From: Butyrivibrio sp. AC2005
GTDB lineage: Bacteria > Bacillota > Clostridia > Lachnospirales > Lachnospiraceae
NCBI RefSeq assembly: GCF_000424145.1
Contig: NZ_AUJI01000010.1
Location: 62,001-126,000 of the forward strand
Direction of reading: 5' to 3'
DNA length: 64,000 bases
The notes beneath the pieces were generated by a model. The model had not been told where the DNA came from and did no database searches. It worked only from the letters and a program-made list of their open reading frames with translations. Below are positions 32,055 to 56,900 of the stretch, one piece after another (the first letter of the stretch is position 1; the number at the start of each line of letters is the position of its first letter). Both the position numbers and the translations under genes were made by a program.

Positions 32055-33815
32055 TCATTCGGCCATATACACTTCAAAGCGACCGTTATCAAAGACATTA
32101 TTATACTTCCAAGTCTCGAGGAAGTCCAATAAAAGGTCATATTTATCCTCTGCAAGCACCTCTCCCTCAAAATCGGGGTTGATGATTACAACCGGTAAAT
32201 CCTCTGTTTTACCATCTTTAAATGCCGCAAGGGCACCTGTAAATTTCTCTGTTGTATTAGAATCAAGGTCAGGCCAGGTTGTAAAAATAGCAGGTTCCAT
32301 ATCGAGTAAATATGAAAGCCCGGGAGCTTTCCCAAACTGGAGAAGCTTTTTATCAGAAAGGTCATTTTCCACAATAGCTTCATGCAGTTCAGAAAGACTC
32401 TCAGCATTGTATTCAGTGGTATGCATACCGGCAGCCTTCGGAAGATCCTTGGTTCCCACCAGAGAAGATCTCTTCGTTCCATCTGTTCCATCAACAAAGC
32501 TGTACTTCAAATGGAAAAGTGATCCCTGAATAAGAACAAGCAACAAAATTGCCATATAAGCAGCCTTCCAGCCAAAATTAAGCTCACTTGGTCCTGCTGC
32601 CTGCCTCATCCTTCTGAACATCCACATAATAAACGGTGCCACAATAAACAGATTGTTTATAAGCGGATAGGTATAATTATTACTTCCAAGTGGCGTAATA
32701 ATTATGATAATAAACGATGCCAGACACAGGCTCCTCTCAGATGCCTGGCCGTGTATTTTCCTGGTAATTCCAAAGGCAAAAAAGCACACGCCCCATATAA
32801 GGAACATCATTGCCGGTTCAAACACCGAATCATAATAGTGATAGCTTCTTGTGAACACTTCATCAGTATAATAGTAATATAAAAGTACTAAAATTCCGGC
32901 TATATACAAAATTCTCTTAGCCCAGTAGAATTTTCCGGGCTTTAGGAGCATCATGATAACACCAACTATCATGCAGGGCACCATGATTACCATGTGTGCA
33001 AAGCTTGTATACCATGCCCGTAATATCGCTCCCACCATACCAAAGGCGGAATAGTCCGATGCCCCCTTGGACATCTCAGACAAGGATGTAATCATATCGT
33101 GATACGCTGTTATCCCGTACTTTACACATATTGCAATAAACGGAATACTGAAACCTATTGCATATCCAAGCACACACAGTCCTGTTTTTCTGAGGATTTC
33201 TTTCATTTCACGCTTATGGATCATTTCGTAATACCACAATATCAGTATCATCGAAGCTTCCATAATATTGGGAAATCTTACCATCACTGACAAACCAAGG
33301 CAGACACCGGCCAGAATAAACTTCCACCTGGTGATCACATAGTCTGTCATAGCATGCATCAAAAGAAGGGTTCCTGTAGTGAAACAGAAATATGTAAGAT
33401 AGTTATAAAGAATTACTCTGGGACACCAGCACAGATTTATGGCTATAAGCTCGCCAATGAAGGTCATCCATCCGGGCATCCATCTCTGAAGAAGATAATA
33501 TGCAACAAGTGCTGTCGCACTTATTACAAAGGAACAATAAATATTCATTCCCAGCATGGTATTTCCACCGGGAAGAGCCATAAAGAGCCTTCCAAGAATG
33601 TTGGGAATGTACGTTGCTATCATCCACATTGGATCAAGGACATCACCGTACTGGTAATTCCCAAGACTATAGGTGGTATCTGTTATGTCTACTCCCTGTG
33701 TTACTCCTATAAGAGGATAAAAAAGCAAAATTATCGGAAAGAGCCATTTTTCCATTGGCTCCTGATATTTTTTCAGTCTGAAAACTTTATCCCTGATGGT
33801 CCAAAGTGTTATCAT
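32055..33815 (-). CDS. Polytopic membrane protein, probable GT-C glycosyltransferase
   Basis: 586 residues from ATG 33813-33815, 5 nt after GGGGAG, which is the edge of hairpin repeat copy B. About twelve helices to residue ~440, then an extracytoplasmic domain of about 140 residues. The outer loop after the first helix carries GVDITDTTYSLGNYQY, an acidic motif compatible with GT-C chemistry. No close family name is recognised. The context (ABC flippase upstream, GtrA/WecE downstream) supports glycan modification. Confidence 0.72.
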   Translation of the reverse strand: MITLWTIRDKVFRLKKYQEPMEKWLFPIILLFYPLIGVTQGVDITDTTYSLGNYQYGDVLDPMWMIATYIPNILGRLFMALPGGNTMLGMNIYCSFVISATALVAYYLLQRWMPGWMTFIGELIAINLCWCPRVILYNYLTYFCFTTGTLLLMHAMTDYVITRWKFILAGVCLGLSVMVRFPNIMEASMILILWYYEMIHKREMKEILRKTGLCVLGYAIGFSIPFIAICVKYGITAYHDMITSLSEMSKGASDYSAFGMVGAILRAWYTSFAHMVIMVPCMIVGVIMMLLKPGKFYWAKRILYIAGILVLLYYYYTDEVFTRSYHYYDSVFEPAMMFLIWGVCFFAFGITRKIHGQASERSLCLASFIIIIITPLGSNNYTYPLINNLFIVAPFIMWMFRRMRQAAGPSELNFGWKAAYMAILLLVLIQGSLFHLKYSFVDGTDGTKRSSLVGTKDLPKAAGMHTTEYNAESLSELHEAIVENDLSDKKLLQFGKAPGLSYLLDMEPAIFTTWPDLDSNTTEKFTGALAAFKDGKTEDLPVVIINPDFEGEVLAEDKYDLLLDFLETWKYNNVFDNGRFEVYMAE

Positions 33816-33822
33816 GCCTACT

Positions 33823-33917
33823 CCCCTCATCCGTCAGCTTCGCTGACACCTGTCTCCGCTCCGGTCCGCGCAAAGCCATCGTCCACTGGACGATGTGCGC
33901 CACCAAAGGGAAGGCGG
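33823..33917 (-). repeat. Hairpin repeat, copy B (long form)
   Basis: About 95 bp. The first hairpin is GTCAGC-TTC-GCTGAC, differing from copies A, C and D (GGCGC/GCGCC) on both arms so that pairing is kept. It shares with copy C an internal stretch including the palindrome CATCGTCC-ACT-GGACGATG. The conserved CCTCAT end faces the downstream gene and supplies the GAGGGGAG ribosome site. Confidence 0.88.
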
Positions 33918-37973: not shown

Positions 37974-39170
37974 TTATAATCTGCTGAGCTCATCATTTAA
38001 AATTTCAGCAACCTGCTCCATATCAAAACGGTTATATCTCTGGTCTATCCAGAAAGCCAGCATATTTTCCGAAAAATGTCTGGCGTTTTCACTGACTTTT
38101 CCCGCTTCATCAGATATAGGCCATAAAACAGGGGCATAAACGCCCCTCTGTGCAAGGCGTTTTTCAAAATCATCACGGGTGATGGCCTTTCCATCATCAG
38201 TAATTGCACTTCTTCGCAAGAAATCAACATCAAGCACTATCGGGAGCATAAAAGGTGTACTTTCATATCCGTTATCGCTTTCAGGAATCTCCGGAAGAAG
38301 CCTGTATGCCTTATCGCAAAGAGGAGCTTCCTTAAGCATTTTATACAGATTCCTGTAATTAGCACTTCTTCTTGTCCTGATATAACCTGTATCCAGATCA
38401 CTTAAGTACTCCGCGCTTACATCTGACATATGATAAGGATCAAGACCGTCGCTAAGGGAATCCTCCGCATCAGACAACAGTTTTCTGAAATGAGCCTTAA
38501 GTTCCTGATCGCCATTATCGAGGTATTCCGTCTTTTCAATAAGTGCCTCTGTTCTAAGCGCTGTGAAGTCTGTCTCTCCAGTGAGCGCTCCCATCACAAA
38601 TTCCGTGCTGCTTATAGCAACAGCTCCATCCGGCACTCCAAGCCATTTGCGAATACTTCCGACATGATAATCAGCAAGTATATCCTGAACAAGGTATTTA
38701 TCGGGATCCATCAGAATATGTGTGACATCTTCGATAATAATCGCCTTTCTGCAAGTATCCTTTATTTTTTTAGTTACCTCTGATATCCTTGTACAACCAA
38801 AAAAGTTCATAAGCAGTATTATGGGAGTTACTTTTTCTTCATTATCATCCCCTGTAATTTCACTTATTTTTCCTATAAGGTCGTTTTCATCTACAGATAG
38901 ATTTTCCCCAAGGGCATAATAGCTAATACCAAGCCCTCTTACTTCAAAAGGTCTCACCATGGAATCACAGGCAAGAGCCGGCATCAGAACACGAATCTCA
39001 TCATCGTTTTTCGCTATAATATCATCTGCTATAAATCCTATGGCATCTCTGCCGCATCTTAAAAACTCCGCATATCTGTCATTATTCTGGGCTATTTCTG
39101 ATAACGAAGCTACCAGATTCTGCCTTTTAGATGTTTTTAGAAAATTAAATTCGCTTCCGATTTCGTACAT
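37974..39170 (-). CDS. Divergent fold-type I PLP enzyme (DegT-like), function unknown
   Basis: 398 residues. Overall DegT/DnrJ-like organisation, but strongly diverged: the PLP-stacking segment reads IIEDVTHILMD (Asp148) where the family has EDAA, and the lysine segment reads GSIRKWLGVPDG (Lys175). Both key residues are present, so catalysis is possible. The usual substrate-loop motifs and the glycine-rich AALxG entry are missing. RKW-x3-PDG is a distinctive marker. It could modify a sugar, an amino acid or a surface-protein substituent. It lies between the Fn3-like protein and the GT2 gene. Confidence 0.68.
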   Translation of the reverse strand: MYEIGSEFNFLKTSKRQNLVASLSEIAQNNDRYAEFLRCGRDAIGFIADDIIAKNDDEIRVLMPALACDSMVRPFEVRGLGISYYALGENLSVDENDLIGKISEITGDDNEEKVTPIILLMNFFGCTRISEVTKKIKDTCRKAIIIEDVTHILMDPDKYLVQDILADYHVGSIRKWLGVPDGAVAISSTEFVMGALTGETDFTALRTEALIEKTEYLDNGDQELKAHFRKLLSDAEDSLSDGLDPYHMSDVSAEYLSDLDTGYIRTRRSANYRNLYKMLKEAPLCDKAYRLLPEIPESDNGYESTPFMLPIVLDVDFLRRSAITDDGKAITRDDFEKRLAQRGVYAPVLWPISDEAGKVSENARHFSENMLAFWIDQRYNRFDMEQVAEILNDELSRL

Positions 39171-39273
39171 AATCCTGCCAACCTCTTTATAAAAAAACTT
39201 TTGCCTTTATCATACCGAAACATGATTTTATAACTTTTTATGGGCATATGCAATGTGTGCCAATCAGAGCCCA

Positions 39274-40272
39274 TTATGAATACTGCCCGTGATAATAGGT
39301 CTGTCTCACATTTCCTTTTTTATATTGCCACACATAACCTATACCTGTGCCCCCTCTTCTGCCGCCGGATTTCCTTACACCTTCTACATATACATAGTAG
39401 GTTCCGTTCTTTTTATATGAACTTCCCTTAAATTTACTTACAGTTGCGGTATCTTTGTTTTTTCCAGCTCTGGCAACCTTAACATAACCCTTATCACGAC
39501 TCTTGGACACGTAAATATTATATCCGCCGTTTGCATATTTTGTTTTGTCCCAGCTAAGCTTCAGCTTTCCTCCCTCAATATGTAAGTCGAAATCATTCCC
39601 ATAATTATATGACCTTATCATGGGCTGGGCAAAAAGATAAATACGGTCTGACCAGGCACTTTCATAGGTTTTTCCATTAATAACTGCAACAGATTTTACC
39701 TTGAAGGAATAGCATTTCTCATTATCCACATTTTTCTTTAAGGAATTTGTGAATGCATCACCGGCTCTAATCCTTTTACCGGACTTATTCATGAAAACAT
39801 ATCTGTAAAAGCCCGCTGTCTGGGCTTCCCAGGTTATATAAACCTTTTTGGTATGAATATACCATCTTGCCTGAGTGACCCCTTTTACTTTATCCGGTAT
39901 GGTTTTAACAATGGAAGTATTTGCTTTTGCTTCCTTTACACCATCAGTTTCCACATATCTGTACCTCAGGGTAACATAATAATTCATTCCGGCCTTAAGT
40001 CCTGTATAGGTGTAATGGATTGTATCAGAATCAAATGTCAGTGTATGTGCCTCTGCATCCTTTTCCGAAGCTTCCTTACTCTCTCCTATTCCAAGATAAT
40101 ACTCTGTGGCTCCCCTGACCTTGGTCCAGTTAACCGTGACACTGTCAGTTGCATACTTTGTCTGAGTAATTACAGACGCAGCTGCAGACACTTCACCTGA
40201 AGGAATAAGTATTATCACAAAAAAGATGGCTGCCAAAGCGCATATTATTCTTACTATTCTATTCTTTCTCAT
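39274..40272 (-). CDS. Secreted protein with fibronectin-III-like domains
   Basis: 332 residues. Signal peptide 1-31 (basic start, long hydrophobic core, cleavage near VSA-AAS). Three Fn3-like modules of about 90 residues follow: one with VTVNWTKVRGATEYYLGI and YTGLKAGMNYYVTLRY, one with KKVYITWEAQTAGFYRYVF, one with KLKLSWDKTKYANGGYNIYV. It ends in a Lys/Gly/Tyr/Arg-rich tail (GGRRGGTGIGYVWQYKKG). There is no anchor, so it is probably secreted or glycan-bound. It follows the GLUG-repeat gene by 24 bp and is probably co-expressed with it. Confidence 0.8.
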   Translation of the reverse strand: MRKNRIVRIICALAAIFFVIILIPSGEVSAAASVITQTKYATDSVTVNWTKVRGATEYYLGIGESKEASEKDAEAHTLTFDSDTIHYTYTGLKAGMNYYVTLRYRYVETDGVKEAKANTSIVKTIPDKVKGVTQARWYIHTKKVYITWEAQTAGFYRYVFMNKSGKRIRAGDAFTNSLKKNVDNEKCYSFKVKSVAVINGKTYESAWSDRIYLFAQPMIRSYNYGNDFDLHIEGGKLKLSWDKTKYANGGYNIYVSKSRDKGYVKVARAGKNKDTATVSKFKGSSYKKNGTYYVYVEGVRKSGGRRGGTGIGYVWQYKKGNVRQTYYHGQYS

Positions 40273-40296
40273 CTTTTCTCCCTATAATCTGTCGTC

Positions 40297-43200
40297 TTAA
40301 TGCCTTCTGTGGCGTTTCTTTTTGCCCCTTCCGGAACTCTTTGTTGGCTTCTCATCAGCCTTTGGAGCTTCCTCAGAACTATCTTTTTCCGGAGCTTTTT
40401 CTTCGTCTGGTTCCTGCTCCTCTTTTTCCGGTTCCTCTTTTTCCGGTTCCTCTTTTACGGATTCCTCTTTTGCAGATTCCTCTTTTACGGATTCCTCTTT
40501 TGCAGATTCCTCTTTTACAGGTTCCCCGTTGCCGCCTTTCCTCTGGGCATGCTTCTTTATTGCTGCATTTATGATCAGTATCAGCACACCTATAAGCAAT
40601 ATAACGCCAACAAGATAGAGAATTCTTCTTACAAGCGGTCTTGTTTCTACAATTGCAAATATCGCTTCCTCACCCTCAAGCTCAATTTCCATGTAACTGC
40701 CTACAGTCTTAAACGGAATATCTTCCCATTTTTCATCCCTGTAGATTTTTACAGTGGCTTCCTCATAGGGACAATAAAGTCTTATCTTTCGGTCTGCATT
40801 CTGGGAATAGGATCCTTCGTCCACTTTAATCTTATAAACCACTGATCCCTTTTCGACTGTCGGGCTCTGAATCACATAGGAAGGCTCATCCACAATCTCT
40901 GCCTCTATATATGCATCACCACCGTAGCTTCCTCCGAGAATGGCAATATGTTTTCCTGTGTCCCCATACACCGCCTCGCTCTCAATCGCCTTATTGGTGG
41001 CTACATATTCACCTATGAGAATATAGCTTCCTTCCATTACCATATCCTTAACATCAGGCCACTTAATGTAATATCCTTCCCTTTCTTCTCCCTCAGGGAA
41101 GTTCAGCTTCTGAAGGCTTTCACCATATGCAAGCTCCTGCTCTCCAAGCTTTTCATCCTCTACCTCAAACACAACCTTGAGGTGCCTGAAATCGTTCGGA
41201 ACATCCCCATGAGAGAGTAACAGCTGATAGGTTATGGGTTCTGCTCTTTCTGAAAAACTTATATCGTCGATTCCACCGATTTTACTCTCGACGAAATAAT
41301 TATTTTTTATATTATCTATCTTTGCCCTTTTAGTCTCAGCATCGGTATTGACTATTCCCGCAATTGAGCCAAATCTCTCTTTAGGATCGTTATCCCAGGT
41401 AACCATCGCATTACAGCCGGTTATCGTCGTTCCGTAACCTGCTATTCCTCCGACATATTTGTTACCGTTAAGAAGGCAAAGCGTATCACAATCTCTGATA
41501 ATTGAAAGGGACTGTCCGGCTATTCCTCCTGTATAATTTCCTTCCGTACTCTTTGCAAGACCATAGCCTTCACTTGACGTTACTATTCCCTGAGCCATAT
41601 ATCCGACAATCAATCCTGCTCCGTCTTTCTTTGACTCGACGGTCGACTCATTTCTGCATTCGCATACTATGTTCTTAAGAGTATATTTACTGCCTCTTCC
41701 TATGTTCAGATTACCTGCAGCATTCTCTTCAGGGTCTTCCTCGTCTATAGCCATTGAACCAGCTATTCCGCCAATATTAATATCACCCTTTACTGTTCCG
41801 ACATTTTTGGAACTGTCTACTCTTCCCGTTCTTGCATTCTCTATATCTTCATCCGAAACATCTGTAAAAACAGCTGAATCATCGTTATATATAATGTCAA
41901 GTCTGTCGGAAATAATATGATATATTTCGTTTACCTGATCATTCACAGCAGCAAGGTTGGAATTCAATGTATGCGAACTGCTCTTTCCATCCTGATTAAT
42001 GCTTTCAATTGAGCCTGATATTCCCTTCAGATTTGCATGCAGCGAATCAAGACTTGCATCCCAATCACTTCCAAGACCTGTAAGTCTTAATTTTTCCTGT
42101 GAGTTCAGATAATCAAGAATACTTCTGGTCCCCTGTGCAGCTTCCTTAAGTTCCCCTTCGGCACCCTGAAGTGCTGCAATGGCATTCTCTGTCTCACCTA
42201 TAGTTTCATCTGCCCCGGATTCCGCATATGGTTTGTATGTCTCAAGGATTGTTGACGCATCACCGAACATGGTATATACATTGCCACCGGACTCAGCAGC
42301 CATCTGCTGGAGTTCTGCAAGATATGAATTGAGCAGCGCCTGTTCATCATCAGTCAGAACTCTGAGAATTCTGTTTCCGTTCTCATCGAATTTGTAGTCA
42401 CCGTTCTCATCCTTTTCATACATGAGATCGTTTATGGCAGCTGTAATATTTTGTATTCTCTGAGTCTTTTCATTCGCGTCAGCAAGCTTATCATAGATCT
42501 GACTCTCACTGCTCTCTATCTTGTCCCTGTCTTCTATGGACAGATCATCATCAACATTTATGGCTTCTATTGCTCTTGCCAGTGAATTGTTGAAATAGTA
42601 CATCTTATCTGATGCGCCTTCAAGGTGATCTATGACGCCCGGAATATTTTGCATAACATATTCAAAACGTTCCAGCGCAGCATTTGCCACTCTGATATTT
42701 TCATTTATGGATGTGGTCAGCTCTCCTGTCAGTGCCCTTCCATCATCCACTACCCCATTGGCATATCCGGTAAGACTCGTCACATCCGATGAAATCGTAT
42801 CAACACTTCCATCCATATCCGTAAGAGTCTTTTCAACCAGATCATGAAGCTTATCTGCTGCTTCAGGCAGTGTCTGCAAATCTTCAGGTTCAAGATAGGG
42901 TTCCATCTGTCCAACGATTCCGCCTATATCCTTACGACCATTGATCATACCGGAATTCGTGCTGTAAGATATTATTCCCATCTGTCTTCCGGCAATGCCT
43001 CCGACATTATATCCAACGTGCTCGTAACCGATGTTACCCTTATTTGTGCAGCGGACAATACTTCCCTTGGAATATCCCGCTATTCCACCGGTATCAGTAC
43101 CTGAACGGATTGTCTGGTCATCACCTTCTACAGTTGATGCTATTGTCTGAATAATGCTTTCACCTTTTTCATCTTCCTTGACAACCCATTCCGCATTATC

Positions 43201-44031
43201 GTTTATACTGCCATTATTTGTGGCTCCGGATACTACGCCATAGTTTTTTCCGACTATGCCTCCGGTGAAGAAATATCCGGAAACGTGCGCATTATTAATA
43301 CAACCATTTATGAGGCCTGTATTCTCATTTATGGCTGCTATTGCACCAACAGTATTATTACCTTCGATAACTCCTGAGTAGGTACAGTTCTTGATGATTC
43401 CAAGGTTCATTCCGCAAAGTCCGCCGGTATACTTCAGTTCATCCGTCATACGAATCTCACCGGTTACCCTGAGGTCCTGAACTATTCCATTTGTACCTAT
43501 ATAGCGGAACAATCCTGTAATATAACTGTCTTCCGAATTTCCGTATCCCTTTATCTCATGGTTCTCTCCCTTGAAAATACCATCAAAATAGGGGATCATA
43601 TCAAAACCTGTATTAGAGAGATCCAGATCTGTTTTAAGCGTTACTATCTTATTTGTAGACCAGGCATCTTTCTTGCATTCTTTTGAGAACTCGATAAAAT
43701 CCTCAACGGAATTAATATCCAGATTTTCATATACTATCTCAACTACTTCTTCAACTTCCGCTTCCCCGGCATCACCCGAGGTGACTTCTTTATTTTCTTC
43801 ATTCTCGCCATCGCTGGCTTCCGCGAGCCTTTCACTGCTCTCCCGCTCGCTCTTTTCTGTCATTTCCGTAATGGTGTCTGTCTTTATCTTATTTTCTACG
43901 TTTTCTATAAGTTCATTCTCAAGTTCATTAACAGCAAGGGCATTTAAACTAAAGCTGCCGGCCATAAGTGAAGCTGCCATTAAAGATACTGTCACTTTTT
44001 TCAGAATGATATTAAGTGTCTTCATTTTCAT
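40297..44031 (-). CDS. Large surface protein: GLUG-type repeats split by a helical coiled-coil insert, C-terminal membrane anchor
   Basis: 1244 residues. Signal peptide to about residue 33 (SLNALA-V). An acidic stretch, then repeats of the GGIAG/GGIVG type (about 165-375), the pattern of GLUG/M26-type beta-solenoids. From about 380 to 735 the sequence is helical and heptad-rich (NENIRVANAALERFEYV and similar), after which GGIAG repeats resume (745-895). A beta-rich segment, one membrane helix (1136-1158) and a cytoplasmic tail of seven (E/K)EE-S/P units ending KKKRHRRH complete it. The start overlaps the MMPL stop (ATGA), with GGAGGTGG upstream. The pairing suggests an outer partner of that transporter. 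No enzymatic motif is seen. Confidence 0.85.
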   Translation of the reverse strand: MKMKTLNIILKKVTVSLMAASLMAGSFSLNALAVNELENELIENVENKIKTDTITEMTEKSERESSERLAEASDGENEENKEVTSGDAGEAEVEEVVEIVYENLDINSVEDFIEFSKECKKDAWSTNKIVTLKTDLDLSNTGFDMIPYFDGIFKGENHEIKGYGNSEDSYITGLFRYIGTNGIVQDLRVTGEIRMTDELKYTGGLCGMNLGIIKNCTYSGVIEGNNTVGAIAAINENTGLINGCINNAHVSGYFFTGGIVGKNYGVVSGATNNGSINDNAEWVVKEDEKGESIIQTIASTVEGDDQTIRSGTDTGGIAGYSKGSIVRCTNKGNIGYEHVGYNVGGIAGRQMGIISYSTNSGMINGRKDIGGIVGQMEPYLEPEDLQTLPEAADKLHDLVEKTLTDMDGSVDTISSDVTSLTGYANGVVDDGRALTGELTTSINENIRVANAALERFEYVMQNIPGVIDHLEGASDKMYYFNNSLARAIEAINVDDDLSIEDRDKIESSESQIYDKLADANEKTQRIQNITAAINDLMYEKDENGDYKFDENGNRILRVLTDDEQALLNSYLAELQQMAAESGGNVYTMFGDASTILETYKPYAESGADETIGETENAIAALQGAEGELKEAAQGTRSILDYLNSQEKLRLTGLGSDWDASLDSLHANLKGISGSIESINQDGKSSSHTLNSNLAAVNDQVNEIYHIISDRLDIIYNDDSAVFTDVSDEDIENARTGRVDSSKNVGTVKGDINIGGIAGSMAIDEEDPEENAAGNLNIGRGSKYTLKNIVCECRNESTVESKKDGAGLIVGYMAQGIVTSSEGYGLAKSTEGNYTGGIAGQSLSIIRDCDTLCLLNGNKYVGGIAGYGTTITGCNAMVTWDNDPKERFGSIAGIVNTDAETKRAKIDNIKNNYFVESKIGGIDDISFSERAEPITYQLLLSHGDVPNDFRHLKVVFEVEDEKLGEQELAYGESLQKLNFPEGEEREGYYIKWPDVKDMVMEGSYILIGEYVATNKAIESEAVYGDTGKHIAILGGSYGGDAYIEAEIVDEPSYVIQSPTVEKGSVVYKIKVDEGSYSQNADRKIRLYCPYEEATVKIYRDEKWEDIPFKTVGSYMEIELEGEEAIFAIVETRPLVRRILYLVGVILLIGVLILIINAAIKKHAQRKGGNGEPVKEESAKEESVKEESAKEESVKEEPEKEEPEKEEQEPDEEKAPEKDSSEEAPKADEKPTKSSGRGKKKRHRRH
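40418..40522 (-). repeat. 15-bp tandem repeat, seven units, inside the surface-protein gene
   Basis: Seven in-phase 15-bp units starting TCCTCTTTT on the plus strand encode the KEES/KEEP cytoplasmic tail. Units 3-4 and 5-6 are identical 30-bp pairs. Copy number could vary without shifting the frame. Confidence 0.93.
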
Positions 44032-46544
44032 GACTCCACCTCCTCATTCTTTTTTAAACCTAAAAGCTTATCCAAATCATCTCCCGATATTCGTGTCGCA
44101 TCAAGTCTTTCGATATTTCCGCTCTGGATAAAGGCTCTTACGTCACCTCTTACAACAGCATGTACTTCACCGATAATTGTTCCGTTAATCTGTCCCTGAA
44201 TAGTTCCGTCTATTCTCATAAGTCCCATATCACGCTCTATGACAAGCGGAACCGAAACCTCAAATGAAGTCTTATCTATTATCTTAGCTCCGATCAGAAG
44301 AATCTGAGGAAGAACAAACATAACAAGGAAAATGGAAATTATTGTTCCTCGTCCCAGGCACTGTCCGATACCGCAAATCGCTCCGTCAGAAGTCAGCATA
44401 CCGATGGATATACCTGCCATCGCAAGCATTGATCCGGAAGTGATAATTGTAGGAAACGCAAAGTTCATAGTCTCTATAATAGCGTCCTTATGAGACATCT
44501 TATCCTTAAGCTCCATGAATCTTCCGGATATAACTATGGCATAGTCGATATTTGCACCCATCTGAATAGAACTTACTATCAGATATGTCATGAAAAAGAT
44601 ATTGTCATTCTGTATGGTCGGAAATGCAAAGTTAATCCAGATAGCACCCTCAATTACCAGGATAAGGAGCACCGGCATACCTGCTGATTTAAAGGTAAAC
44701 AGCAGAACTACCAATACCGCCAGAATCGAAATTATGGTAACAACTGTATTATCTCTTGAGAAGGTCTTCTGAAGGTCATACTGGGATGTAGCTTCACCAA
44801 TAACAAAAATCTGTCCCTCATAGTACTTATTTGCCATGGTGTGCATCTGATCCAGGAAATTAAAGGTTTCTTCACCCTCCTCAGGGAGATTTAAATAAAC
44901 AAGGATTCTGCTGTAATTTTCTCCCTGCAGCTGTTTTTTTGCTATGTTCATCTGCTCATAGGCATCGTCGAGTTTTTCCTTCATGCTATCCTCAAGAGTC
45001 ACATAACCTTCCTCAACTTCATCATGAGCAAACATGATCATATCTATAAGAGGTACTCTGTAGGTTGAAATACCATTTACAAGCTTCGCATAGTTCTTGT
45101 CATTAACCGCATAGGCCATGTACAGAAGCTCTGCCTTCTCGTAGTCCAGTTCTAACAGCTCTGAAATCTCTCTCGCTGTCAGCTTATCAGCAAGGCAGTA
45201 ATCATCCATCGCCTCAATGTTCGCAAGTCCCTGTGCTGATTTAACTTCCGGGCATGCAAGGTAATCCTGTATCAGTTTCTTTTCCTTCTCGTAATTCCCT
45301 GCAGGAATATTTACTGCAACAAAATTGGAATCTCCGAAGGTTTCGCTTATCATTTCATTTGCTATCTGAGTATCATTTTTTATGGGAGTTTCTATTTCAC
45401 TATATCCATATACGAAGGGGCATTTATTCTGTATAAGGAATGCTATGATAATTACCACAATAAAGATGGGCGGAACCAGGAATCGTGTATGATAATCCAG
45501 CTTTCCGACAAATGGTATCTTCGGAACAAAGCTCTTATGCTTTGTTTTATCCATCCAGGGACCAAATATCATAAGAAGCCCCGGCATTAAGAAGAATACG
45601 GCAACCAGGCTGAGTAAAATAGCCTTAATCAGACATATAGCCATGTCTACACCTATTCCAAACTGCATGAACATCATGGCAACCAGGCCACCTATTGTAG
45701 TAAGGGAGCTTGAAGAAATTTCAGGAATTGCTTTACTAAGAGAAATAATGTCAGCTTCTCTGATAGGAAGCTTTTCATGCTCTTCCTTATAACGGTTACA
45801 GAAAATAACAGCATAGTCTATTGAAAGAGCCAGCTGCAAAACTATTGTAACCGAATCAGATACGAAGGATATTGTTCCAAGAATGAAATTGGTACCGCCG
45901 GACATCAATGCTGCTGCACCAAATGTAAGCAGCAATACAGGTATCTCCGCATAGGTTTGGGATGTAAAAAACAGTACTGCAAGAACTATGACAACAACCA
46001 GTGCACTTACTACCTGCATCTCCTTTTCAATAGTATCTGCTGCTGCATTACCCATGGAAGTACTTACAAATATGTCATAATCAGAAAGTGACTCCTCAAT
46101 ATCAGCAAGACCGTCCAGTGATCTCTGGTCAGTATCTTCATACTTGAAGGTGACATCATAGAGAGCTGAAAAATTATTGTAATGATCTGGTGTCTCATCA
46201 AAAGTAACCATTGAGACATCATCGCGCTCTGCGATTTTGTCTGAAAGATCTTTCGCATCCTCATATACGATATTTGAGACCATGATTTTGGCAGATCCAT
46301 ATGTCGTATATTCTTTTTTCATGAGATCAAGACCGAGACTGGTCTCAAAAGAATCAGGCAAATAGGCAGGCAGCGAGTTCTCAACATTTACCATCCCCAT
46401 TGCTATCACACAGAAAATCATTGCAATGCCAAACAACAGGAAAAAGAGGTTTCTTCTGTCAACAATAAAGGTAGCAACCTTTATCATTGCATTTCCTTCT
46501 TCTTCCTGAACAGGACCGTTAGTAACTTTACCTTGTTCAGCCAT
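44028..46544 (-). CDS. MMPL/RND-superfamily transporter with bactofilin-like C-terminal tail
   Basis: 838 residues and twelve membrane helices in two halves of 1+5, each half with a large extracytoplasmic loop. The proton-relay type motifs appear twice, SIDYAVIFCNR (241-251) and NIDYAVIISGR (second half). MMPL proteins use the proton gradient to move lipids, glycolipids or peptides out of the membrane. After the last helix a short cytoplasmic region (776-817) reads as tandem GxIxG/GxVxA turns (RIDGTIQGQINGTIIGEV), which resembles a bactofilin-type beta-solenoid and is unusual for MMPL. It is coupled (ATGA) to the GLUG-repeat protein. The cargo is unknown. Confidence 0.88.
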   Translation of the reverse strand: MAEQGKVTNGPVQEEEGNAMIKVATFIVDRRNLFFLLFGIAMIFCVIAMGMVNVENSLPAYLPDSFETSLGLDLMKKEYTTYGSAKIMVSNIVYEDAKDLSDKIAERDDVSMVTFDETPDHYNNFSALYDVTFKYEDTDQRSLDGLADIEESLSDYDIFVSTSMGNAAADTIEKEMQVVSALVVVIVLAVLFFTSQTYAEIPVLLLTFGAAALMSGGTNFILGTISFVSDSVTIVLQLALSIDYAVIFCNRYKEEHEKLPIREADIISLSKAIPEISSSSLTTIGGLVAMMFMQFGIGVDMAICLIKAILLSLVAVFFLMPGLLMIFGPWMDKTKHKSFVPKIPFVGKLDYHTRFLVPPIFIVVIIIAFLIQNKCPFVYGYSEIETPIKNDTQIANEMISETFGDSNFVAVNIPAGNYEKEKKLIQDYLACPEVKSAQGLANIEAMDDYCLADKLTAREISELLELDYEKAELLYMAYAVNDKNYAKLVNGISTYRVPLIDMIMFAHDEVEEGYVTLEDSMKEKLDDAYEQMNIAKKQLQGENYSRILVYLNLPEEGEETFNFLDQMHTMANKYYEGQIFVIGEATSQYDLQKTFSRDNTVVTIISILAVLVVLLFTFKSAGMPVLLILVIEGAIWINFAFPTIQNDNIFFMTYLIVSSIQMGANIDYAIVISGRFMELKDKMSHKDAIIETMNFAFPTIITSGSMLAMAGISIGMLTSDGAICGIGQCLGRGTIISIFLVMFVLPQILLIGAKIIDKTSFEVSVPLVIERDMGLMRIDGTIQGQINGTIIGEVHAVVRGDVRAFIQSGNIERLDATRISGDDLDKLLGLKKNEEVES

Positions 46545-54049: not shown

Positions 54050-55822
54050 TTATTGCATTTCATATACCGTCCACATATCCTTCTGTGATATCTTTCCGGT
54101 CCATGAAGCATTTGAATTTGCTTTCATAAGTACGTTCAGTATATTATCCCTGTTATCATTATCTGCAACATAAATTGCAAGGATGTCTGCATTCGCTATC
54201 TCGCTGTCGTCTATTGCCTCAAGATTATCCGAATTAACATAGTATAGCTTATCGTATACCAGAAGTTCATCAGTAAGACGCCATATATTATCAGGCGTGG
54301 CACTGTTATATATAACGACAGCCCTGGCATCCTCTGCCTTCATCTCCTCTGAAAATTCTACCCTTTCCTTATCCTCAGGGTATAGGAAGAGAACATTCTG
54401 ATCAATTGCGAGACCTTTAACAGTTATAATTGCAAAAATCAGCAGTGCTCCGAGTACCGGTATTTGTACCTTGGCAAAGCTTCTGTTTCCTACTATTGCT
54501 CTTATTCCTATTCTTGTAAAATAGGCAGACACAAGCAATACAATAGGATATATCGGCATCTCATATCGGTTTGAGGTATCGCCAAGCAAAAGTGCTGTTT
54601 TAGCCACGATAAAGAAATAACCTAATGCGGAAACAAACAGTATTCTGATATGCGCAATATGCAGCTTATCCTTTTCTCCTTTAACCCTGAGCATAAAGAA
54701 AAGCGCAATCAGAGCAATTACCGCCAGCACTATTATCAGCCACAGCATTCCCGAAAACAGATAATCATTTACAAGTCCCAGGAAAAAAACAAATCTTTCC
54801 CAGATATTTGACATGTTGGAAAATGCTTCTGCAGCCTCCTGACCTCTGTATCCTCTGAAAATATGTGAGAGTGCCGATGGATAAATTGCAAGAGATATGC
54901 CCAGCGCTACAATACCGCCAAGCACATAAACAAGGATATATTTGGATCTTTCCGCCATTGAAGCTGCCTGCTGAACAAATTCCTCGTCTCCTAAAATATT
55001 CTCGATGTTCAGAACTCCGGTATTGTCCTTATCCGTTTCATCATTCTTTTTCTTCCTGTTTTTTGGCATAAGGAACAAAAACCAAATTGCAAAGGAAAGC
55101 CCCATAACACACATATAAACAAGATAATAATACTGCGTAAGGAACCCAAGGATACTTACAATCGCGATTGCAACAACATAAGACACAAAGCCCTTTTTAA
55201 AAGCTGCATCAAAAGGCTTGTCAAGAACAAAGCCTTTAAGTTCATTCCCTGCATAATATTTTTTTATGAGGCTTATAAGCTTCATGTGCAAATACGCAGA
55301 AGCCAAAACAAAAACCGTAAGCCACATATACATACGAATGAACAAAACACAGGATATGGTCATAGGATTAAACCCATAGGCCAGCATCAGAATAATTCTC
55401 AATTCTTTACTCATTCCTATGGATTTTGCCAGCTTATTAAGAATAACAAAGCTGATTACAAAGGCAATCAGATTTACTACAATACCCTGCCATTTACTGA
55501 AGACCTCCGGTGTCAGAGAACATGCGGTATGCAAAAGATCATAAAAAAGCGGCGGATGTACATCCCAGGACTGCACCAGATGGACAAGTCCATAGTTAAA
55601 GCCCTCTCCGTTTTTTACCACAAATTCATCTCTTATAGTGTCTGTATCTACCCATTCCCTGTCAGGATAATAGAAGCCAAGGCTCCTGTTTGAAGAAAAA
55701 TATGAGTAATACTCATCCTGATGAAAGCCCGCCTTCTGTACTCCGAAAAAGCAGATAAAGGCCACCTGAATGATTAATATAAGAAGTAATATTAAGCTGT
55801 ATTTTTTTGACTTAATCTTCAT
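54050..55822 (-). CDS. GT-C membrane glycosyltransferase (GT39/PMT-like)
   Basis: 590 residues from ATG 55820-55822; an upstream in-frame ATG at 55876 would overlap the previous gene by 32 bp. The ribosome site GGGAG is distant from the chosen start, so the start is uncertain. The first helix is followed by GFHQDEYYSYFSSN, with an acidic pair in the catalytic position of GT39/GT83-type enzymes, then WDVHPPLFY. About eleven helices and an extracytoplasmic C-terminal domain of about 110 residues. A cytoplasmic acidic loop (KNRKKKNDETDKD) lies in the middle. It transfers a sugar from a polyprenyl-phosphate donor outside the membrane. It is last in its operon. Confidence 0.8.
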   Translation of the reverse strand: MKIKSKKYSLILLLILIIQVAFICFFGVQKAGFHQDEYYSYFSSNRSLGFYYPDREWVDTDTIRDEFVVKNGEGFNYGLVHLVQSWDVHPPLFYDLLHTACSLTPEVFSKWQGIVVNLIAFVISFVILNKLAKSIGMSKELRIILMLAYGFNPMTISCVLFIRMYMWLTVFVLASAYLHMKLISLIKKYYAGNELKGFVLDKPFDAAFKKGFVSYVVAIAIVSILGFLTQYYYLVYMCVMGLSFAIWFLFLMPKNRKKKNDETDKDNTGVLNIENILGDEEFVQQAASMAERSKYILVYVLGGIVALGISLAIYPSALSHIFRGYRGQEAAEAFSNMSNIWERFVFFLGLVNDYLFSGMLWLIIVLAVIALIALFFMLRVKGEKDKLHIAHIRILFVSALGYFFIVAKTALLLGDTSNRYEMPIYPIVLLVSAYFTRIGIRAIVGNRSFAKVQIPVLGALLIFAIITVKGLAIDQNVLFLYPEDKERVEFSEEMKAEDARAVVIYNSATPDNIWRLTDELLVYDKLYYVNSDNLEAIDDSEIANADILAIYVADNDNRDNILNVLMKANSNASWTGKISQKDMWTVYEMQ

Positions 55823-55844
55823 TAGAAGCTTTCTATCTCCCTGG

Positions 55845-56900
55845 TTATTTGATACCTCTGATTTTGGCATGCGCACTTCTTACTGCTTTGGGCGCAATAC
55901 CAAGGGCAAGCAGATATACCCTGTTCTTTGATGTGAGATATTTATTCTGAAAAATATCCTTCATATGTTTTTTCAAAAAGCCCACAACTTCTTTTCTGTA
56001 GAATTTATTTGACCGATTCATTTTGCTGATCGGAATATGCAGCAGATAATCCAGCCTCTGAATGAGGCAGAATCTCATTGCTATATCCCTTAGTCCCGGG
56101 AAATTTTTCTTAACAAGCCTGTATGCCACATCTGAATTTCTCACGATATCTGTGAAAACAGGCGGGAAATAATCCTTCTGGTCAGCCTTTTTCCTGGAAT
56201 TGCTTCCGCTTCTGTAAAAAACATGATAGTACTGCTGCGGCAGAATTACCAGTTTAGAAATCCTCTTAAGCATATGTATCATGAGATAAAAATCTTCGTT
56301 TAACTCGTTTTCAGGAAATCCCTTACACTCACCCCTGAACAATTCCCTGCTGGTAAGCTTGGTACAAAAGGATGCATCGCCGGTATGCATCAGAAGAGTT
56401 CTAAGGTGCTCTTCTCCGTTAATTGTCTTCACAGCCTTCGGCGGAATACAGACATCGGGAAGCTTCGTTCCGTCCTCTGCTATTTCATCTCTGGATACCT
56501 GTGCCATCAAAACAGGCGACTCTTCCGAACTATTTTCCTCTATCGCCTTCATCAGGCTCTCATACATGTGGGAATCTATATAATCATCCGAATCAACAAA
56601 ACCTATATAATCACCTGTAGCTGCGGAGAGTGCAAAATTCCTTGCTTTACTGCTCCCGCCGTTTTCCTGATGCAAAAGCAGGAGCTTTGGATACTGCCTG
56701 TTTTCGCTATCCTGATTTGCTTTATCGATAAAATCTTCTATCTTTTTATACGTATCATCCGTTGAGCCGTCATCAACGATAATGACCTCCATCAGCTCAT
56801 GGGGATAGGTCTGCTCGCAAACAGACTTAACGCAGCGGATTATAAGGTCCTCAATATTATAAGCAGGTATTATTACACTTATTCTTTTTCTGAAAGTCAT
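55845..56900 (-). CDS. GT2 glycosyltransferase
   Basis: 351 residues from ATG 56898-56900, coupled to the preceding stop (TGATG); a GTG one codon earlier is equally possible. GT-A domain: ISVIIPAYNIEDLIIRCV, VIIVDDGSTDDTY, GGSSKARNFAL and the metal site GFVDSDDYID. The C-terminal ~120 residues are basic and lack helices (FYRKEVVGFLKKHMKDIF). Sugar specificity is not readable. Confidence 0.88.
   Translation of the reverse strand: MTFRKRISVIIPAYNIEDLIIRCVKSVCEQTYPHELMEVIIVDDGSTDDTYKKIEDFIDKANQDSENRQYPKLLLLHQENGGSSKARNFALSAATGDYIGFVDSDDYIDSHMYESLMKAIEENSSEESPVLMAQVSRDEIAEDGTKLPDVCIPPKAVKTINGEEHLRTLLMHTGDASFCTKLTSRELFRGECKGFPENELNEDFYLMIHMLKRISKLVILPQQYYHVFYRSGSNSRKKADQKDYFPPVFTDIVRNSDVAYRLVKKNFPGLRDIAMRFCLIQRLDYLLHIPISKMNRSNKFYRKEVVGFLKKHMKDIFQNKYLTSKNRVYLLALGIAPKAVRSAHAKIRGIK

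Follow-up and report, generated by a model that had tools for sequence, protein, structure and literature searches.

Background

To our knowledge, little is understood of the route by which resistance-nodulation-division (RND) pumps of single-membrane bacteria pass their substrates through the thick wall, or of the need of these pumps for partner proteins. FarE of Staphylococcus aureus belongs to the RND/MMPL proteins. The lipids that this exporter releases are phosphatidylglycerol for the most part, with fatty acids in smaller amount, and farR and farE are divergently oriented (PMC8844917). MmpL5 has a 196-residue coil located in PD2, and a distance of ~18 nm from the transmembrane (TM) domain to the tip is given (PMC12501195). 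In MmpL3, proton passage is considered to depend on the pairs Asp256-Tyr646 and Asp645-Tyr257 (PMC13134001). In this work we analysed a 64,000-nucleotide stretch of the Butyrivibrio sp. AC2005 genome (contig NZ_AUJI01000010.1, positions 62,001 to 126,000), further called the window, which is part of an assembly of 5.1 Mb in 74 contigs. It carries a gene of an MMPL-family transporter followed by a gene of a 1244-residue protein, here called the partner, in which a GLUG-like solenoid is combined with a long helical stretch. Many Clostridia of gut and rumen carry these two genes side by side, and such pairing suggests an export machine of two parts that has so far gone undescribed. No published description of such a pair was found in the open-access literature (one library searched), and on one annotated record, from Monoglobus, the partner is named a hypothetical protein.

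Results

The MMPL and partner genes as a conserved unit

The first-pass annotation of the window, made from the sequence alone, proposed a surface system of four genes, encoding the MMPL transporter, the partner, an Fn3 protein and a divergent pyridoxal phosphate (PLP)-dependent enzyme. All four open reading frames are located on the minus strand at the coordinates given there (Table 1), and its description of consecutive genes with an ATGA overlap and a 24-bp gap is correct: the MMPL and partner frames share 4 nt, and the Fn3 start lies 24 nt past the partner end. The conserved unit is nevertheless the first two genes and not the set of four. The four-gene system was rejected because the Fn3 and PLP-like genes follow the pair in only five loci, and the four stand together only in the window and in L003-L006.

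An initial contig search returned 11 relatives of the partner, every one directly preceded by an MMPL homologue; identities to the window proteins were 64-88% for MMPL and 34-77% for the partner. In a family sample of 397 genomes, with MMPL called at E ≤ 1e-100 and the partner at E ≤ 1e-20, MMPL was found in 62 genomes and the partner in 59, all of them within the 62 (Fisher p 2e-67, uncorrected for relatedness). The three MMPL-only genomes (G016, G348 and G358) have a contig end downstream of MMPL, and G358 retains the partner start. Since mostly two candidates were scored per genome in the large samples, second copies can be overlooked. Profile searches detected the partner in 32 of 295 genomes of the order sample (25 new, 7 seen before) and in 7 of 398 of the phylum sample (5 new, 2 seen before), so that the pair becomes sparser with distance from the family; the named relatives carrying the partner are Lachnospiraceae.

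MMPL lies immediately upstream of the partner, on the same strand, in 86 of the 89 partner genomes (84 loci, one fused gene and the window itself). In two of the remaining three, G331 and G572, the partner locus is cut by contig ends. The third, G457, carries such an MMPL gene on another contig, with its downstream side cut, and is the single real case of a partner without an MMPL neighbour among the 87 genomes whose upstream side is visible. Its partner gene (L154:2534-6001, minus strand) stands behind rpsR- and ssb-like genes. Two loci with MMPL only, at contig ends (L133 and L134, the latter showing a 138-aa partner start), are outside the 89. Read as the longest frame, with start codons not settled, the partner begins inside the MMPL frame in 82 of 84 loci. 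We regard the pairing as well supported.

Several loci depart from the simple arrangement. Both genes are broken in G205, and a broken copy is also present in G016; in G380 a partner gene lies on either side of the pump. L129:6492-15456 (minus strand) has the order GLUG-coil, MMPL, GLUG-coil, with a single pump gene between two partner genes. In the Butyrivibrio sp. AC2005 genome the second-ranking MMPL match reaches only E 2.4e-33.

Distances between MMPL proteins and between partners are correlated with r 0.784, the best of 2000 permutations giving 0.160 (n=83; besides the fusion and the window, only loci having a single complete MMPL and a single complete partner were kept), a correlation expected from shared ancestry alone. 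Within the genus of the window, five other genomes (L106 and L179-L182) encode MMPL proteins 57-60% and partners 28-30% identical to those of the window, and some other genera reach 70% MMPL identity to it; two lineages of the pair exist inside this genus, perhaps by transfer.

The two genes are presumably co-transcribed. Scans inside the operon gave promoter and terminator counts near shuffle level (38 vs 30.8, sd 5.5, and 8 vs 7.2, sd 2.8, respectively).

A natural fusion

In G543 (L171:4830-10895), inside a 174-kb contig, pump and partner parts form one frame of 2021 aa, with no stop between them; re-initiation at an internal ATG within this frame is possible. The order is MMPL, hydrophobic segment, solenoid, coil, solenoid, last membrane helix and, past that helix, a HATPase_c_2 domain (PF13581, E 2.9e-7, 31 bits vs a cut-off of 27.4). 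Residues 8-759 align on the MMPL profile. Among 29 genomes of the same genus MMPL is present in four, and in the other three it is a frame of 846-869 aa. Because the two proteins are naturally fused here, a joint function of pump and partner is suggested.

Architecture of the partner

Structure prediction of the partner, recommended by the first-pass annotation, was made with AlphaFold2 (AF2) from 12 sequences and gave a mean predicted local distance difference test (pLDDT) of 72.4 and a predicted template modelling score (pTM) of 0.54. In this model a beta-solenoid is followed by long helices of modest confidence, a second beta-solenoid, a region rich in beta-strands and, after it, a membrane helix, which bears out the earlier description of a solenoid split by a helical stretch. 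The assignment as a solenoid depends on the fold alignment; the Pfam GLUG profile (PF07581) gave 17.6 bits, below the cut-off of 20.5.

By fold the partner is predicted to be a beta-helix of the IgA1-protease type broken by a helical insert. The five best matches to beta-helices of IgA1 proteases had Z 22.8-24.8 over 241-258 residues (7uvk: Z 24.8, 3.1 Å over 258 residues; 3n6z: Z 22.8, 2.5 Å over 241), and the first and last residues of the aligned span flank the insert. This relation was drawn from a second structure aligner, because Foldseek alone, run with the partner model, gave nothing at E ≤ 0.001. The fold comparison also listed TTYH and de novo helical bundles, which we discounted as matches between helices in general. 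Likewise, the 60 chains found at E ≤ 1 with the partner profile among PDB sequences (best E 5.9e-4), with helical or coiled-coil titles, were taken as generic coils.

The insert of the window protein has 369 aa and is mostly helix in the model; residues 386-715 show a hydrophobic periodicity of 3.4-3.67 residues above that of all 1000 shuffles. Insert lengths were read from a hidden Markov model (HMM) alignment for 90 of 96 proteins, six partial or off-type ones being excluded (a regular expression worked in 43 of 95). They range from 187 to 861 residues (median 370.5, coefficient of variation (CV) 0.28), on a near-constant base of 246-387 residues before the insert (CV 0.11) and 294-459 after it (CV 0.05). 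At an 80% threshold, 82 of 280 and 41 of 196 columns are conserved in the two solenoid parts and 2 of 345 in the insert. The acidic motif of the second solenoid part is unchanged in the 12 closest sequences. Inspection by eye of the four longest inserts showed one (L156, 647 residues) to be helix-like throughout and three (L087, L089 and L094) to contain beta-repeat-like or low-complexity stretches between helical ends. In the latter three such stretches sit as if mounted on the tip of a stalk.

The single C-terminal membrane helix and charged repetitive tail noted in the first-pass annotation are present in the window, where the long tail is a local feature: at most 90 residues follow the last membrane helix in 83 of 90 homologues, and more only in L171 and L088. 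As to anchoring, which the same annotation assumed, most homologues have the helix and five of 90 (L091, L112, L122, L124 and L154) have none by hydropathy. The final 150 residues of the 96 proteins contain no LPxTG-type motif. In L088:12602-14152 about 420 extra residues extend past the last membrane segments; they belong to no clear family, all Pfam matches being below cut-off.

The pump

The transporter matches Pfam MMPL (PF03176) with E 5.5e-33 and 114.7 bits (cut-off 20.5). Its hydropathy profile gives 12 segments at a threshold of 1.2, 13 at 1.0 and 11 at 1.4. D243, Y244, D667 and Y668, lying in segments 4 and 10, are invariant in 83 of 83 homologues; by analogy, D243-Y244 would correspond to Asp256/Tyr257 of MmpL3 and D667-Y668 to Asp645/Tyr646. 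Loop 1 has 116-137 aa and loop 2 222-229 aa in all 83, and because these lengths are nearly fixed the pumps are a subfamily without a coil of their own. Matches to distant homologues do not extend over the Gly-rich C-terminal tail of the window protein, and the fusion lacks it; this tail perhaps forms a small beta structure.

Table 1. Features of the MMPL-partner locus (positions in the window)
Feature	Position	Strand	Basis
MMPL-family RND transporter, 838 aa	44028..46544	-	Pfam, NCBIfam, hydropathy (12 segments at one threshold)
D243-Y244 codons, 4th hydrophobic segment (231-249), likely proton-relay pair	45813..45818	-	conservation, hydropathy
D667-Y668 codons, 10th hydrophobic segment (655-673), likely proton-relay pair	44541..44546	-	conservation, hydropathy
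MMPL C-terminal tail, residues 765-815, Gly about every 4 residues	44100..44252	-	homologue matches, fusion
Partner (GLUG-coil protein), 1244 aa	40297..44031	-	open reading frame, homologues, AF2 model
Partner, N-terminal signal-like hydrophobic segment	43930..44031	-	sequence; homologue hydropathy
Partner, beta-helix part 1, residues 100-379	42895..43734	-	AF2 model, structure alignment, conservation
Partner, helical insert, residues 380-748, length variable in homologues	41788..42894	-	AF2 model, HMM alignment, periodicity
Partner, beta-helix part 2, residues 749-930, with acidic motif D-x-EDPEENAAG	41242..41787	-	AF2 model, homologues
Partner, C-terminal beta-strand region, residues 931-1130	40642..41241	-	AF2 model
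Partner, single C-terminal membrane helix, residues 1133-1166	40534..40635	-	AF2 model; sequence
Partner, charged repetitive tail, presumably cytoplasmic	40300..40533	-	sequence
Secreted Fn3-like protein, 332 aa, local accessory	39274..40272	-	Pfam, homologous loci
Divergent PLP-dependent sugar-aminotransferase-like protein, 398 aa	37974..39170	-	profile match, homologous loci

Regulators and neighbouring genes

After removal of 13 of 98 loci without a usable upstream neighbour, 85 were surveyed. A TetR_C_8 gene stands directly upstream of the pair in 17 of them, divergently in 16 and on the same strand in one, an order which recalls farR-farE of the fatty-acid and phosphatidylglycerol exporter. 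The regulator scan covered 38 of the 85 upstream proteins (17 judged TetR-like by eye and 21 other divergent ones). TetR_C_8 matched 17 of the 38, which we take to be the 17 picked by eye, and TetR_N matched 16. On a Monoglobus record the annotation lists a divergent TetR/AcrR gene, then an MMPL family transporter and a hypothetical protein. The order TetR-MMPL-partner of L197 (NZ_OY725729.1, 1-13103) lies on a 37.7-kb Monoglobus record labelled plasmid; this record bears phospho-sugar mutase and rubredoxin genes as well, and the plasmid label may merit a check.

Clustering of 567 neighbour proteins from the 63 loci gathered before the order and phylum samples gave 20 clusters represented in at least three loci. 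The largest is TetR, seven are the Butyrivibrio glycan set and the rest, judged by eye, resemble common families. A conserved wider neighbourhood was rejected; immediate and further neighbours vary between loci.

The placement of the pair in a glycan locus after pseudaminic genes, as first annotated, agrees with the profile matches: PseB, PseC, PseF, PseI and a WecE-type transaminase of the window score above NCBIfam cut-offs, PseG is just under its cut-off and a PglK-like flippase well under its own. One ATP-grasp gene, on the MMPL strand, lies between PseG and MMPL. The Fn3 protein scored 21.4 with Pfam fn3, below the cut-off of 25. The PLP-like protein had no Pfam match at E ≤ 1, and its PLP identity is proposed from a profile comparison in which dTDP-sugar transaminases matched weakly (E 5.5e-4). 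The five loci with both genes downstream of the pair are all Butyrivibrio glycan loci, and in them the genes, counted from PseG through to the PglK-like flippase, keep one order; the relatives sharing it are named Butyrivibrio. In L012 a longer relative of the Fn3-like gene follows the pair, without the PLP-like gene. Glycan gene families that recur in at least three of the 63 clustered loci are confined to the Butyrivibrio set, and the general tie to glycan export implied by the first-pass annotation is not supported. A glycosyltransferase-like gene, judged by eye, is located upstream of the pair in L090. In the window, two large proteins of the glycan locus (54050-55876 and 32055-33830) had no NCBIfam match at 1e-10.

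Discussion

With slightly more belief than doubt, we propose that the pair is an exporter of a hydrophobic compound, driven by the proton motive force and composed of two proteins, the extracytoplasmic stalk being supplied in trans by the partner. The MMPL protein would be a 12-helix RND pump in which the proton gradient, acting through the two D-Y pairs, drives the removal of a hydrophobic or lipid-like substrate from the membrane; its two extracytoplasmic loops are compact and without a coil. The partner would be exported and usually anchored by its C-terminal helix. Its beta-helix would act as a platform in physical complex with the pump, and from this platform a helical stalk of species-specific length would project into or across the wall, as an in-trans counterpart of the extended part that MmpL5-type pumps carry in their own second loop. 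Such a stalk may span or shape the wall. The first-pass suggestion of an MMPL exporter with a solenoid partner fits the adjacency, the co-distribution (59 of 62) and the fusion. In this sense the partner, found in 59 of 397 family genomes and in 86 of 89 beside one MMPL subfamily, is a candidate for a missing part of RND pumps. The system may also have a part in the tolerance of rumen and gut bacteria to lipids or fatty acids. Where it lies in a Butyrivibrio glycan locus, it may handle a compound linked to glycans, and the Fn3 and PLP-like proteins would be local additions.

Several observations weigh against this proposal. The insert was modelled with modest confidence, in pLDDT blocks of about 42-80, and its hardly conserved sequence speaks against a specific tube interior; the beta-repeat-like and low-complexity stretches of the three long inserts would be as much in keeping with a display stalk as with a conduit. 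The MMPL model was poor (pLDDT 47.9). To the same side belong the homologues without a C-terminal helix, the true adjacency exception in G457, the distance correlation explicable by common descent, the fusion seen in one genome of 89, and TetR genes upstream in just 17 of 85 loci and not in the window.

A further-reaching version of the exporter would be a split MmpL5 design evolved in Clostridia, in which a compact pump works with a separate beta-helix protein bearing a coiled-coil conduit, whose length would be adapted to the envelope from species to species, for wall-spanning RND export in single-membrane bacteria. We put this forward tentatively and with considerably more doubt than belief.

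As the main rival we consider a trans-envelope sensor or gate, in which the state of the wall or a ligand would be sensed through stalk and solenoid and relayed by the C-terminal helix to the pump or the cytoplasm. The HATPase_c_2 domain at the end of the fused G543 protein would fit such a role, as would the helical sensor domains (TorS, PilJ, McpS) appearing in the fold lists, at levels common for helical bundles. Against it stand the short segments after the last membrane helix in most homologues and the five proteins without this helix, and among the 63 loci no kinase or sigma-factor family recurs beside the pair, as judged by eye. We find a sensor unlikely. Next comes a surface adhesin or display stalk, for whose assembly the MMPL protein would export or install a necessary lipid. 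A solenoid combined with a stalk resembles a display device, and the poorly conserved insert, the unusual stretches in the three long ones and the partners without a membrane helix could all be explained in this way. The C-terminal ends, however, lack LPxTG-type motifs, and the one-to-one co-distribution with one MMPL subfamily, together with the fusion, suggests that the partner works at the pump. We find a display role somewhat less likely again than the sensor.

An exporter specific to pseudaminic-acid-type glycan pathways, with the Fn3 and PLP-like proteins included, would account for the gene order from PseG to the flippase shared by the window and L003-L006, yet it is very improbable, as beyond these five loci no glycan family recurs in at least three of the 63 clustered loci and the immediate neighbours are varied. 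That two envelope genes are merely co-transcribed for convenience, which the genomic rather than biochemical nature of the evidence for joint function would allow, is hardly credible in view of the gene overlap, the fusion and an adjacency kept over several families and differing neighbourhoods.

Comparison with known systems

HAE3 and MmpL3-type proteins are among the best NCBIfam matches of the pump, yet far below the cut-offs: HAE3 (TIGR00921) gave 103 bits against 351.9 and MmpL3 (NF052608) 30.9 against 1400, with scores far below cut-off also in five related proteins scanned. Because of these scores the pump was not filed under either family; among PDB sequences the pump profile matched MmpL3 alone (E 8e-7).

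With IgA1 proteases the partner shares the same beta-helix by structure comparison. It differs by the large coil that breaks up this beta-helix and by the membrane helix at its end, and it was not filed as an IgA1 protease because no peptidase family is among its Pfam matches at E ≤ 1.

FarE/FarR resembles the loci studied here as a Gram-positive exporter with a divergent TetR-family regulator, a gene of this kind being present in 16 of the loci; the description of FarE consulted names neither a solenoid nor a coil partner (PMC8844917), and the likeness drawn here is one of gene order. In the window the place of the regulator is taken by the ATP-grasp gene.

A close parallel is with mycobacterial MmpL5/MmpS5, an RND pump with a coiled-coil tube, which combines an MMPL/RND core, a long extracytoplasmic helical coil and a dedicated partner whose gene accompanies that of the pump (PMC12501195). 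MmpS (PF05423) had no match in the Butyrivibrio sp. AC2005 genome at E ≤ 1, in a search whose sensitivity is unproven, since control genomes also gave none over the cut-off. The pump was not filed as MmpL5 type because its PD2 is without a coil: in MmpL5 the coil sits inside PD2 of the pump itself, whereas here loop 2 keeps to 222-229 aa and the coil is predicted to be carried by a separate beta-helix protein.

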